64,000 nucleotides of DNA from positions 3,403,501 to 3,467,500 of the forward strand of contig NZ_LT853882.1 of the NCBI RefSeq assembly GCF_900183975.1, read 5' to 3'. The notes beneath the pieces are model-generated. The model was given only the letters and a program-made list of their open reading frames with translations. It did not search any database and had not been told where the DNA came from. Shown here piece after piece: positions 40,374 to 55,287 of the stretch (the first letter of the stretch is position 1; each line of letters starts with the position of its first letter). Source of the stretch: Xanthomonas fragariae (GTDB lineage Bacteria > Pseudomonadota > Gammaproteobacteria > Xanthomonadales > Xanthomonadaceae). The position numbers and the translations under genes are program-made.

Positions 40374-40640
40374 GAGCCGGGATTCGGGAGTTGGGATGGG
40401 GGGTTCGGAAGTACTCCGGTACCTGTCCCATCTCTCCGTCCGGCGAGTGTTGTTGTTTGAAAGTCGGGACTCGGGAGTCAAACCGTGACGCGCTACTGCG
40501 CTCCAAGATCTACCTCACCTACTCCTCGACCGGAATGCCTGCAAAAAATTATCGCCTGCCCGCTCTCCGCTCATACCGCTTGTCGCTAATGCTCTTGCTG
40601 CTGCTTCTTACCAATGCCAAATCCCGAATCCCGGCCCTCA
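40374..40640. repeat. G-triplet inverted repeat E1 between ftsA and ftsZ
   Basis: Right-hand G arm (plus strand) GAGCCGGGATTCGGGAG at 40374 and its complement TCCCGAATCCCGGCCCTC at 40623-40640 bracket the spacer. A further GGGACTCGGGAGTC unit lies between them at about 40462. The arms pair over about 16 bases. Confidence 0.75.
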
Positions 40641-41873
40641 GAACTCCCCGCGGTACCAGTTCTTCAATTTCTTAAACAAACTCCCCGCACGTCCGGTCGG
40701 GATCGATGGGCGGCGTGGGTGATCAATTTGACTGCCCATCAACAACAGGCCCACGCCGGAGGCGTGTACCGGGTTGCCGACGACTTCACCCAAACCGGTG
40801 ACGTGCTGCGGAATGCCCACGCGCACCGGCATCTGCAACATTTCTTCGGCCAGCTCCACCACGCCTTCCATCTTCGAGGCGCCACCGGTGAGCACCATGC
40901 CGGCGCGCACCATTTCTTCGAAACCGGAGCGGCGCAGTTCGGCCTGCACCATTTCGAAAATTTCTTCGTAGCGACCCTGCACGGCCTGCGCGAGCGCGTG
41001 CCGTGGCATGCGACGCGGCGGGCGATCGCCGACCGACGGCACCTGGATGCTTTCTTCGGCGGTGGCCAGCTGCGCCAGCGCGCAGGCGTAACGCACCTTG
41101 ATCTGCTCGGCTTCCGGGGTTGGCGTGCGCAGCATGTGCGCGATGTCGTTGGTGACATGGTCACCCGCGATCGGCAAGGATGCGGTGTGGCAGATCGCCC
41201 CTTGCACATAGACTGCCAGGTCGGTGGTGCCGGCGCCGATATCCACCAGCACCACGCCTAGCTCGCGCTCGTCGGCAGTCAATACCGCTACTGAAGATGC
41301 CAGCGACGACAGCACCAGGTCGTCGACCTGCAAACCGCACTTTTGCACACACTTGGTAATGTTGGCCGCAGCCGATTGCGCGCACACCACCAAGTGCGCG
41401 TGCACCTCAAGACGCACACCGGTCATGCCGACCGGATTGCGGATGCCTTCCTGCGAATCGTCCAGGACATATTCGCGCGGAATCGCGTGCAGGATGCGCT
41501 GGTCGGCAGGAATGGCCACGGCCTTGGCCGCATCCAACACGCGTTCCAGATCGCTCCAGGTCACCTCGCCATCGCGGATCGGCACGATGCCCGGCGAGTT
41601 CTTGCACTGCACATGGTTACCGGAAATTGAGGCGTAGACCGAACGGATTTCGCAGCCGGCCATCAGCTCGGCCTCTTCCACCGCGCGCTGAATCGACTGT
41701 ACGGTGGATTCGATATCCACCACGACGCCGCGCTTGAGGCCGCGCGATTCGTGCGAACCGATGCCGATCACTTCGATCGGATTGCCGGGCGAGTACTCGC
41801 CGACCAGCGCGACGACCTTGGAGGTGCCTATGTCCAGTCCAACGATGAGGGATTTGTCGCCTTTGCGGTTCAT
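40638..41873 (-). CDS. ftsA: Cell division protein FtsA
   Basis: 411 aa. Actin-like fold: phosphate-1 LIVGLDIGTSKVVALVG, phosphate-2 LVDIGAGTTDLAVY, adenosine motif VLTGGASKMEGVVELAEE. C-terminal amphipathic helix GSLFKKLKNWYRGEF for membrane attachment. Known: tethers FtsZ to the membrane and recruits later divisome proteins. ATG overlaps the ftsQ stop (ATGA). Confidence 0.97.
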   Translation of the reverse strand: MNRKGDKSLIVGLDIGTSKVVALVGEYSPGNPIEVIGIGSHESRGLKRGVVVDIESTVQSIQRAVEEAELMAGCEIRSVYASISGNHVQCKNSPGIVPIRDGEVTWSDLERVLDAAKAVAIPADQRILHAIPREYVLDDSQEGIRNPVGMTGVRLEVHAHLVVCAQSAAANITKCVQKCGLQVDDLVLSSLASSVAVLTADERELGVVLVDIGAGTTDLAVYVQGAICHTASLPIAGDHVTNDIAHMLRTPTPEAEQIKVRYACALAQLATAEESIQVPSVGDRPPRRMPRHALAQAVQGRYEEIFEMVQAELRRSGFEEMVRAGMVLTGGASKMEGVVELAEEMLQMPVRVGIPQHVTGLGEVVGNPVHASGVGLLLMGSQIDHPRRPSIPTGRAGSLFKKLKNWYRGEF

Positions 41874-42706
41874 GTCTTAAAGCCGGGAATAGGAAATAGC
41901 GAATGGGGAATGGTCAGAAACAGTGCACGGTTACTCGGAGAATTCAGCACTAGTTTGTGATGCGCGGCAGGCGACGCGGGTTTAGGCTTTTTATCCATTC
42001 CCGATTCCCCATTCTCCATTCTTCGTTCGACCGTGAAACCGTTTGTGTAGCGCAGGTCGGCACGCGCAATCGGGCGCTGCGGGTCAGCTAGCTGCGGCAG
42101 CACGCGTGCGAACCGTTGCAAGCGTGCGCGCGCATCGTCGCGACCGATCACGATCTGTACGCCGTTACTCAAACCCAACGACCAGCTTCCGCGCGCGTCC
42201 ATTTCCAGACGTTCCACATTCAAGCCAGTTGGCGCGAACAACGCGCGCGATTCGTTGTATAGCGCCACCACTTCCTGGGTCTTGCTGTCCGGGCCACCGA
42301 GTTGCGGTAACTTGAAATCCTTCAACAATGGCGGAGTGCGGAACAGCTGCCCTTGCTCGGACAACATGCGATCGGTGCCCCAGCGCGCGAACGGCTCGTA
42401 CTCGGTGACATGCACCTCCAGCACGTCCGGCCAGCGCTTGCGCACCTGCGCACTTTCCACCCACGGCAAGCGCCCGATGGCGTCCTGCGCCTCCTGCAAC
42501 TTCACCGCAAAAAAGCCCGAACGCGCATACGGCAGCACCACCGCTCGCAACTCTTCGGCCGGTACCCGCTTGAAATCGCCGGACACCCGCAACCTCGCCA
42601 ACGGCCAGCGCTCGGCACCGACCCAGCCATTGAGCACAGCCACCACCGGCAACGCGACCAACGTCACCGCGATCAACCAGGCAAGAATGCGCAAGGTGGC
42701 GTTCAT
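41870..42706 (-). CDS. ftsQ: Cell division protein FtsQ with a repeat-derived C-terminal tail
   Basis: 278 aa from ATG (MNATLRILAWLIAVTLVALPV, the single membrane anchor). POTRA domain (LARLRVSGDFKRVPAEELRAVV) and FtsQ domain (RKRWPDVLEVHVTEYEPFARWG; LRYTNGFTVER). After TVERR the last roughly 45 residues (MENGESGMDKKPKP ... LTIPHSLFPIPGFKT) are translated from G-triplet repeat E2 and are unlike FtsQ. Known: FtsQ scaffolds FtsB/FtsL in the periplasm. Starts 124 bases after ddl and overlaps ftsA. Confidence 0.93.
   Translation of the reverse strand: MNATLRILAWLIAVTLVALPVVAVLNGWVGAERWPLARLRVSGDFKRVPAEELRAVVLPYARSGFFAVKLQEAQDAIGRLPWVESAQVRKRWPDVLEVHVTEYEPFARWGTDRMLSEQGQLFRTPPLLKDFKLPQLGGPDSKTQEVVALYNESRALFAPTGLNVERLEMDARGSWSLGLSNGVQIVIGRDDARARLQRFARVLPQLADPQRPIARADLRYTNGFTVERRMENGESGMDKKPKPASPAAHHKLVLNSPSNRALFLTIPHSLFPIPGFKT
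41882..42022. repeat. G-triplet inverted repeat E2 inside the ftsQ 3' end
   Basis: Plus-strand arm GAATGGGGAATGG (41901-41913) pairs with CCATTCCCGATTCCCCATTC and CTCCATTC at 41995-42022. The unit here is GAATG-type in both arms. It is translated as the FtsQ tail. Confidence 0.75.
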
Positions 42707-53965: not shown

Positions 53966-54229
53966 TCATGGACGCACCACCACGATGTCGTTGGTCTCGG
54001 GGAACTTCATCCCGATGCGCACACGTGCGACCTGATCGACCCGATTGCTTTCCGCCCAGGTGGCCTGCTCCAGCTGCAGCCGGCCGAATTCGATATTCAA
54101 CTCATCACGCGTGTGCTCGAGCTTGGACAACTGCACGAACAGCTTGCGATGCATGTGACGCATGTACACGACACCGATCGCCGAGGCGATGCTGCAGGCG
54201 AGCAGCACGATGAGCAGCAGACGGCTCAT
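53966..54229 (-). CDS. ftsL: Cell division protein FtsL
   Basis: 87 aa from the ATG giving MSRLLLIVLLACSIASAIGV (membrane anchor), then a coiled coil (LFVQLSKLEHTRDELNIEFGRLQ) and the WAESNRVDQVARVRIGMKFP motif. ATG overlaps the rsmH stop. Known: FtsL-FtsB activates FtsWI. Confidence 0.93.
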   Translation of the reverse strand: MSRLLLIVLLACSIASAIGVVYMRHMHRKLFVQLSKLEHTRDELNIEFGRLQLEQATWAESNRVDQVARVRIGMKFPETNDIVVVRP

Positions 54230-55287
54230 CGTGCGTCTCCTTGAGACGCCGGAATTGCAGAGTTGGGATTGGGGATTGGCTTGGAGCGCTCTTCCAATCC
54301 CGAATCCCAAGTCCCGAATCCCAGCTTCTCGGCCACCCTCAGCACCGCGCTGCGGGCGCGTGGGTTGACGCTCAGTTCGTCGAAGTCGGCTTTGATGGCG
54401 CCGCTGACCAGTTGCAGCGTCGGCACGAAAGGGTGCGCTTCGGGCAGGCGGCGGTTGCTGGGCGGCGCCTTGGCGTAGCGGGCTATGAATTGTTTGACGA
54501 TACGGTCTTCCAACGAGTGGAAGCTGATCACCGCCAGACGACCGCCCGGCTTGAGCGCGCCCAGGGCGGCGTCCAGACCGTCTTCCAGATCGTCTAGCTC
54601 GCGGTTGATGTAGATGCGGATCGCCTGGAAGCTGCGCGTGGCCGGGTGGGTCTTGCTGTCGCCGCGCGGCATCACCGAGGCGATCAGGTCGGCCAGCTGC
54701 GCGGTGCGCAGCAGCGGCTGGTCGGCACGCCGCGCCACGATGGCGCGCGCAATGCGGCGGCTCTGGCGTTCTTCGCCATAGGTCCACAGCACATCGGCGA
54801 TCTCGCGGTCGGTGGCATGCGCCAACCACTCGGCCGCGCTCTGCCCGGCGTCCGGGTCCATGCGCATATCCAGCGGGCCGTCCTTGCCGAAACTGAAACC
54901 GCGACCGGCCACATCCAACTGCGGCGAGGACACGCCCAGATCCAGCAGGATGCCATCAAGGGTTGCGGCGGCGACCACCTGGCCGAGGCCGGCAAAACTG
55001 CCGCGATGGATAGACACGCGCGCATCGCCACCGAACGACTGTTCGGCCACCGCGATCGCTTCAGGGTCCTTGTCCATCACCAGCAGTCGACCTCCCGGGC
55101 CAAGGTGTTGCAGCACGCCACGAGCGTGTCCGCCACGCCCGAACGTGCCATCGAGATAGGTTCCATTTTCGGTCACTTGCAGGCCATCCAGAACCTGCGT
55201 GTACAGCACCGGCACATGAGCCGCCGGCGGCTGCGACACCGGGTGACCGGGCTGCGCTTCACCGCGCATCCGGGCACCCCGGCTCAC
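54226..55287 (-). CDS. rsmH: 16S rRNA m4C1402 methyltransferase RsmH with a repeat-derived tail
   Basis: 353 aa from a GTG overlapping the mraZ stop (GTGA); ATG 55269 is an alternative. SAM motifs HVPVLYTQVLDGL, YLDGTFGRGGHARGVL, LDLGVSSPQLD and AVISFHSLEDRIVKQF. The core ends near AVLRVAEKLG; the last roughly 30 residues (FGTWDSGLEERSKPIPNPNSA ...) come from repeat E7. Confidence 0.95.
   Translation of the reverse strand: MSRGARMRGEAQPGHPVSQPPAAHVPVLYTQVLDGLQVTENGTYLDGTFGRGGHARGVLQHLGPGGRLLVMDKDPEAIAVAEQSFGGDARVSIHRGSFAGLGQVVAAATLDGILLDLGVSSPQLDVAGRGFSFGKDGPLDMRMDPDAGQSAAEWLAHATDREIADVLWTYGEERQSRRIARAIVARRADQPLLRTAQLADLIASVMPRGDSKTHPATRSFQAIRIYINRELDDLEDGLDAALGALKPGGRLAVISFHSLEDRIVKQFIARYAKAPPSNRRLPEAHPFVPTLQLVSGAIKADFDELSVNPRARSAVLRVAEKLGFGTWDSGLEERSKPIPNPNSAIPASQGDAR
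54263..54323. repeat. G-triplet inverted repeat E7 inside the rsmH 3' end
   Basis: TTGGGATTGGGGATTGG at 54263 pairs across a 13-base loop with CCAATCCCGAATCCCAA at 54295, which continues into a second unit, GTCCCGAATCCC. The shortest loop of the set. Confidence 0.8.

Follow-up and report, generated by a model that had tools for sequence, protein, structure and literature searches.

Inverted G-heptad repeats clustered in the dcw operon of Xanthomonas vary in unit type together with their genomes

A 64,000-nucleotide stretch of Xanthomonas fragariae (contig NZ_LT853882.1, positions 3,403,501 to 3,467,500; hereafter the window), part of a 4.33-Mb Xanthomonas genome (G000), holds a minus-strand dcw operon with seven inverted-repeat elements whose arms are runs of G-rich heptads (E1-E7). 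They belong to a family of inverted G-heptad repeats that is dispersed in Xanthomonas genomes and already known from Rehm et al. 2015 (PMC4692102; this and the other papers cited are drawn on for the sections covered). Three observations go beyond that account: the dcw operon is a hotspot for the repeats, the two arms of an element agree in unit type by way of cassettes, and the type found in the dcw operon is synchronous with that of the genome. The reading considered probable, if only just, is that fixed sites carry divergent cassettes that are exchanged whole, and that the cassette version is coordinated genome-wide by an agent or condition acting in trans.

Units are defined as GGGAxyN, where xy is AT, TT or CC, and are labelled AAT, ATT and ACC, respectively. 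The seven elements had been listed in an initial annotation of the window and all were found where it placed them, as follows (types assigned partly by eye).

E1, 40376..40635, ftsA-ftsZ intergenic, arms 40376-40400 and 40611-40635, ATT-like
E2, 41885..42021, FtsQ C-terminal tail, arms 41885-41913 and 41995-42021, AAT
E3, 42738..42826, ddl-ftsQ intergenic, arms 42738-42756 and 42808-42826, degenerate ATT
E4, 43771..43870, Ddl N-terminal region, arms 43771-43804 and 43837-43870, ACC
E5, 45350..45470, MurG C-terminal tail, arms 45350-45367 and 45453-45470, ATT
E6, 49121..49244, within the MurF C-terminal region, ACC, one arm degenerate
E7, 54262..54322, RsmH C-terminal tail, ATT

E1, E3, E5 and E7 are counted as ATT-like, E2 as AAT, and E4 and E6 as ACC. 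With this partly visual typing the two arms are concordant in 7/7 elements, and in every one the G-rich arm comes first and its complement second, whichever strand is read. A hairpin-pair scan of the window recovered E1-E5 at a score of at least 14 with no match in the reverse-orientation control; at the same score, 400 kb of the same genome gave 4 forward and 3 control matches, so the scan is unspecific when used alone. A unit-based detector found 9 arrays in the window, all within 40612-54322, and none in 1-40000 or beyond 54500. It paired E2, E5 and E7; of the other four elements, which are degenerate, E1, E4 and E6 were each detected by a single arm and E3 by none. Neighbouring arrays are convergent (34 G-then-C, 0 C-then-G and 5 on the same strand), as are the inverted pairs in 800 kb of G000 (8 convergent, 0 divergent), which are dispersed like the Rehm repeats. 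The statement that such elements are absent elsewhere thus held for the window but not for the genome, where these 8 paired elements were sampled.

The comparison set consisted of the window and, for each of 34 other species (L101-L134), a 20-kb dcw stretch, with one genome per species (G000-G034). Array density by the unit-based detector was 62 per 100 kb in the dcw operon of the window (9 in 14.5 kb) and 52 in those of the 34 other species, against a background, measured in G000 and G020, of 3.4 (27 arrays in evenly spaced stretches totalling 800 kb) and 3.5 (400 kb), respectively. Each 20 kb of the 34 dcw stretches holds 7-14 arrays, compared with a maximum of 4 among 60 random stretches (40 from G000 and 20 from G020). 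The clustering proposed in the initial annotation is therefore borne out, both in the window and in 34/34 relatives. Beyond these species, 21 loci from the same family and neighbouring groups (L007-L027) were covered, and arrays were present at 6 of them, namely Luteimonas (L025, 9 arrays, AAT), Lysobacter (L022, 4; L021, 1) and Pseudoxanthomonas (L014, 2; L016, 1), ATT, and L013 (2, mixed); at the four Stenotrophomonas loci among them there were none. Several Xanthomonas species are without the murC-ddl and murF-mraY arms. By eye, the murF-mraY junctions of L111, L112, L115, L118, L122, L127 and L129 retain the MurF spacer peptide, with both ACC arms gone.

Agreement in unit type between the arms of one element extends well beyond the window. 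Both arms were detected in 149 dcw elements, of which 10 are mixed; among the 139 unmixed elements 133 have arms of the same type and 6 of different type. Permutation of the C arms among junctions within species gave a mean of 105 and a maximum of 119 such matches, far below the 133 observed. Outside the dcw operon, 75 elements from G000, G020, G034 and loci chosen for their arrays comprise 9 mixed, 58 same-type and 8 different-type elements, with 23/25 against a permuted 15.8 in G034 and 6/7 against 3.9 in G000 (p=0.04); the single-type sets (G020 5/5, murC-ddl 4/4 and murF-mraY 6/6) are uninformative in such a permutation. The initial annotation had attributed this agreement to co-evolution of the arms by hairpin-templated copying, in which, within a hairpin or cruciform, one arm would serve as the template for its partner while different elements drift apart. 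Such copying would produce the agreement in type; by eye, a rare GGTGATT unit does occur in both arms of E3, and the murG-murC arms of L124 form an exact inverted repeat of 30-odd bases. Once type is fixed, however, two arms from the same element resemble each other no more than arms from different elements do (21.0 versus 20.8 over 58 elements; 34/58 above the cross mean, p=0.68) or than orthologous arms of other species do, and in the dcw operon of a given species an element's own arms are less similar than arms taken from different junctions (21.3 versus 22.2; 44/122 above, p=0.005). When C arms were exchanged among orthologues in 12 sets, the observed pairing was reached in at least 43/500 swaps in every set, such that none of the 12 showed a drop in pairing at the 5% level; ddl-ftsQ ATT (43/500) and murG-murC ACC (49/500) came nearest. 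Arm likeness is therefore confined to type, with no finer resemblance of the kind that the annotation had expected, and arm-to-arm copying, unsupported by both tests, is very improbable. Any correction of one arm by the other would be too slight to measure.

The spacers between the arms point instead to inheritance of arm, spacer and arm as a single piece, which would account for the arm agreement. At a given junction, spacers are related within a type (median z 6.6-90) and much less so between types (0.8-12.8). Each occupied junction would be a fixed site filled by a single cassette out of two or three divergent ones (AAT, ATT or ACC). Matched arms could also be brought to new sites by transposition of a miniature inverted-repeat transposable element or a repetitive extragenic palindromic (REP)-like element, as suggested by presence and absence at the orthologous murC-ddl and murF-mraY sites and by ACC arrays that are plentiful in some genomes and missing from others. 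This explanation is improbable, as same-type spacers from separate junctions are for the most part unrelated (z below 2.5 in most cases, highest 4.0) and Rehm et al. (PMC4692102) did not find a general association of the repeats with mobile elements in the sections covered. A plasmid search gave no match to one 251-base query, which, consisting mostly of ftsQ and the first ftsQ-ftsA arm, is a weak test for the cassette.

Exchange of cassettes is exemplified by the sister species L120 (genome G007) and L125 (G006), which differ by 178 single-nucleotide polymorphisms (SNPs) across 13 gene bodies and carry different whole cassettes at rsmH-ftsL, murG-murC and ftsQ-ftsA. At all three junctions the types of L125 recur in L119, a relative of the pair. 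The L120 cassettes are closest to those of AAT species, while 11/13 of its gene bodies are closest to L119. The ftsQ-ftsA cassette has SNPs on either side, 16 within the 280 bases that end the ftsQ block and 11 within the 260 that open ftsA; the first 170 bases of murC are SNP-free. This pattern shows that in this pair whole alleles were replaced by allelic homologous recombination between species.

The type of the dcw cassettes follows that of the genome. Types were counted by array ends, since counts of overlapping matches are inflated by long arrays. The extremes of ATT/AAT arrays in a genome are 145/8 and 18/114 (5/2 in G024), with 41-156 AAT and ATT arrays together in 34 genomes and 7 in G024. 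The window genome and its near relative G019 have few (41 and 49), and G024 is nearly all ACC (93 hits versus 7 AAT and ATT arrays). The ATT share in the dcw operon correlates with that of the genome (Spearman 0.84, or 0.83 with dcw arrays removed; 33 genomes, G024 and G029 having no AAT or ATT dcw elements); by overlapping matches the value is 0.80. Independent contrasts on a tree from alaS and carB (each gene from 32 genomes, six of the genomes contributing just one of the two) gave r=0.886 over 32 contrasts, with 29/31 non-zero contrasts of the same sign, and those on the dcw tree gave r=0.885 with 24/30. Close relatives can differ strongly, as do G006 (140/12 ATT/AAT) and G007 (53/69), which differ at 73/5702 sites, and G005 (119/37) and G016 (41/93), whereas in G001-G002 and G022-G023 the differences are small in dcw and genome alike. 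For ACC, 9/14 genomes with at least 5 ACC hits have dcw ACC elements by the detector, compared with 1/21 of the others (Fisher p=0.0002); the window is scored here as having none because its ACC arms are degenerate. Avoidance of a GGWCC restriction site was considered as a cause of missing ACC and rejected, with observed/expected values in gene bodies of 0.49 in the 14 ACC-bearing and 0.45 in the 21 other species.

The types could be mere markers of ancestry if AAT-rich and ATT-rich species recombined mostly within their own group. L120 seemingly acquired its AAT cassettes through ordinary recombination together with flanking SNPs, and imported tracts distinguish the sister genomes at other places too. 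The dcw genes, to which the comparison of SNPs with type is confined, do not show such a pattern. SNPs less than 60 bases from an element have bin mean r2 values of 0.00-0.11 with its type (single SNPs to 0.29). For 1853 SNPs in dcw gene bodies, r2 with the genome ATT share averages 0.027 and reaches at most 0.25, and r2 with element type averages 0.034 and reaches at most 0.44; by comparison, r2 is 0.38-0.85 between elements and 0.50-0.73 between element and genome ATT share. A value of 0.72 at 450-900 bases past ddl-ftsQ coincides with the next element. Ancestry alone does not readily explain the synchrony, because the adjacent dcw DNA lacks the same pattern, and such an origin seems unlikely. 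A cassette version that is coordinated across dispersed arrays, and statistically independent of flanking dcw SNPs, would instead imply a trans agent, or a selective condition, that acts on repeat type.

Several points weigh against this reading of whole cassettes coordinated in trans. The trans agent is still hypothetical, and recombination was dissected in a single sister pair. Arms differ in type in the 6 dcw and 8 other elements given above, with 10 and 9 more mixed, and hybrid elements are found at ddl-ftsQ in L110 and L102; cassettes therefore do break, and exchange can cut through an element. Spacer homology between types is clear at ftsA-ftsZ alone (z 12.8), and the values for ddl-ftsQ (5.1) and murG-murC AAT/ACC (4.4) barely exceed the top control from unrelated junctions (4.0). 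G017 and G027 have opposite ATT shares in the dcw operon (0.94 and 0.00) and similar shares in the genome (0.71 and 0.58), and linkage remains downstream of ftsQ-ftsA (mean r2 0.24 for 3 SNPs at 60-120 bases). By eye, two genomes (L158 and L169) have an element that combines an arm of ACC units with an arm of AAT/ATT units, which suggests that mismatched elements are heritable.

One candidate for a factor in trans, put forward tentatively and by analogy, is a sequence-reading DNA receptor such as a DNA-uptake pilin that would prefer incoming DNA of the matching heptad type and so convert about a hundred sites towards one type, the types serving as dialects in the manner of Neisseria but switching fast between sister species. 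Synchrony without linkage to flanks and exchange by recombination would fit such a factor, the FimT protein of X. campestris binds DNA (PMC8897410), and the DNA uptake sequences (DUS) of the Neisseriaceae (Frye et al. 2013, PMC3630211) are likewise short, dispersed repeats of core genomes that often form inverted pairs, have dialects differing by one or a few bases and are coordinated genome-wide. DUS, however, number thousands per genome and their dialects track phylogeny, whereas the heptads form tens to about 150 arrays, most genomes mix types and sister species differ in type, unlike one dialect per species congruent with phylogeny. The elements share the inverted pairs and are not classed as DUS, because copy number and phylogenetic behaviour differ. 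FimT3 of Xylella binds DNA without sequence preference (PMC9956873), which also counts against an uptake pilin, and both the Neisseria-like dialects and the receptor reading them are doubtful. If the repeats do switch type together without the adjacent DNA, the repeat sequence is read by some trans-acting process; finding that process could reveal what the repeats do and by what means xanthomonads select DNA for recombination.

The initial annotation placed all seven elements at gene junctions, which does not hold for 5/7, as these are within reading frames and not intergenic:

ftsQ, 41870..42706, minus strand, open from its ATG through E2 up to the ftsA start
ddl, 42831..43886, minus strand, with E4 inside, downstream of the start codon
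murG, 45313..46590, minus strand, open through E5 up to the murC start
murF, 49026..50549, minus strand, open through E6
rsmH, 54226..55287, minus strand, open through E7 up to the ftsL start

The upstream frame reads through the junction in every species at rsmH-ftsL (34), murF-mraY (35), murG-murC (35) and ftsQ-ftsA (35), and the junction lengths, of which there are 8, 14, 8 and 5 distinct values, respectively, are equal modulo 3. In all 8 species inspected, the upstream stop at the read-through junctions overlaps or lies past the next start. The murC-ddl lengths are also equal modulo 3 (7 distinct), the ddl start codon preceding the insert, and those of ftsA-ftsZ and ftsZ-lpxC take all three remainders at random. 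Since frame is kept at these junctions, 5/7 window elements are protein tails or inserts. Strict frame keeping shows only that translation constrains the elements; they are tolerated in the operon where they preserve both the frame and the stop-start overlap of adjacent genes. At ddl-ftsQ (42707-42830), 34/35 lengths are equal modulo 3 (10 distinct) despite an immediate ddl stop and no conserved start codon upstream of the ftsQ ATG. At the ftsL-ftsI junction (about 53890-53995) the ftsL stop is followed, ahead of the ftsI start, by an in-frame small open reading frame made of units of about 70 bases (MTKRQDSRFARRSRPQGGAH...), with a single copy in the window and several tandem copies in other species; the junction lengths are equal modulo 3 in 34/34 (L101-L134).

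A role of the elements in the RNA of the operon was also considered, with folding on the gene strand covering E2-E7. The z-scores are -3.2 (E2), -6.9 (E3), -2.3 (E4), -3.7 (E5), -1.2 (E6) and -1.9 (E7), such that E6 and E7 fold hardly better than shuffles, and 83-100% of the predicted arm pairs are standard. RNA hairpins are thus predicted, and a quadruplex of such G arms would rest on Rehm et al. (PMC4692102), in which related oligonucleotides form quadruplexes in vitro. An intercistronic hairpin or quadruplex under selection, setting the stability, processing or translation of division-gene mRNA, would be compatible with cassettes and is consistent with positions conserved across the genus, with standard arm pairing, with E2-E5 outfolding their shuffles and with transcription of the majority of the repeats (PMC4692102). 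The lack of compensatory change above the arm-swap controls, the arms missing from murC-ddl and murF-mraY in several species, the weak folding of E6 and E7 and the absence of any Rfam match at gathering score in window 39900-54600 all speak against it. A regulatory role of the elements is possible; that a selected RNA structure underlies them is plausible in part and not expected. Small hairpins holding the ribosome-binding site are found just upstream of the ftsQ, murC and ftsL starts (near 42709-42723, 45315-45336 and 54228-54246). In the ftsQ hairpin all 6 pairs are standard in 28/35 species, with versions GCGCGC/GCGCGC and GTGTGC/GCACAC; in the murC hairpin, for which the register is guessed, all pairs are standard in only 7/35.

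In two Xanthomonas genomes, Rehm et al. (PMC4692102) counted 186 and 183 repeats of the GGGAATC type, among which were 70 and 75 convergent inverted pairs. The repeats are mostly intergenic and near gene ends, and their function was left open. The elements described here share with them the heptad, the roughly four units, the convergent inverted pairs, the position near gene ends and a gene context that was common to two species. The published definition, at least 14 bp of (GGGANTN)n including one GGGAATC, fits E2 as read from the sequence; the ATT elements fit GGGANTN without GGGAATC, and the ACC elements (E4 and E6) fall outside it. The Rehm repeats are mostly non-coding, unlike the 5/7 elements in reading frames, a comparison made for the window elements only. 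Arm-type agreement, the dcw hotspot, in-frame cassette exchange and genome-wide type synchrony are absent from the sections of that paper covered, and a literature search judged on titles and abstract openings gave no report of type synchrony, dcw clustering or cassette exchange for these repeats.

REP families (PMC3733652) are also numerous short palindromic repeats within a genome, consisting of 20-40 bp palindromes with GTAG/CGTC tags. In the present elements the heptad arms are, by contrast, separated by about 15-240 bases. Rickettsia palindromic elements are palindromic repeats retained in frame within proteins, and resemble the dcw elements by this description only. The latter differ in their position, which is mostly at the end of a gene and tied to the start of the next, and in having heptad arms of exchangeable types; they illustrate how repeats can survive within essential division proteins as translated tails.

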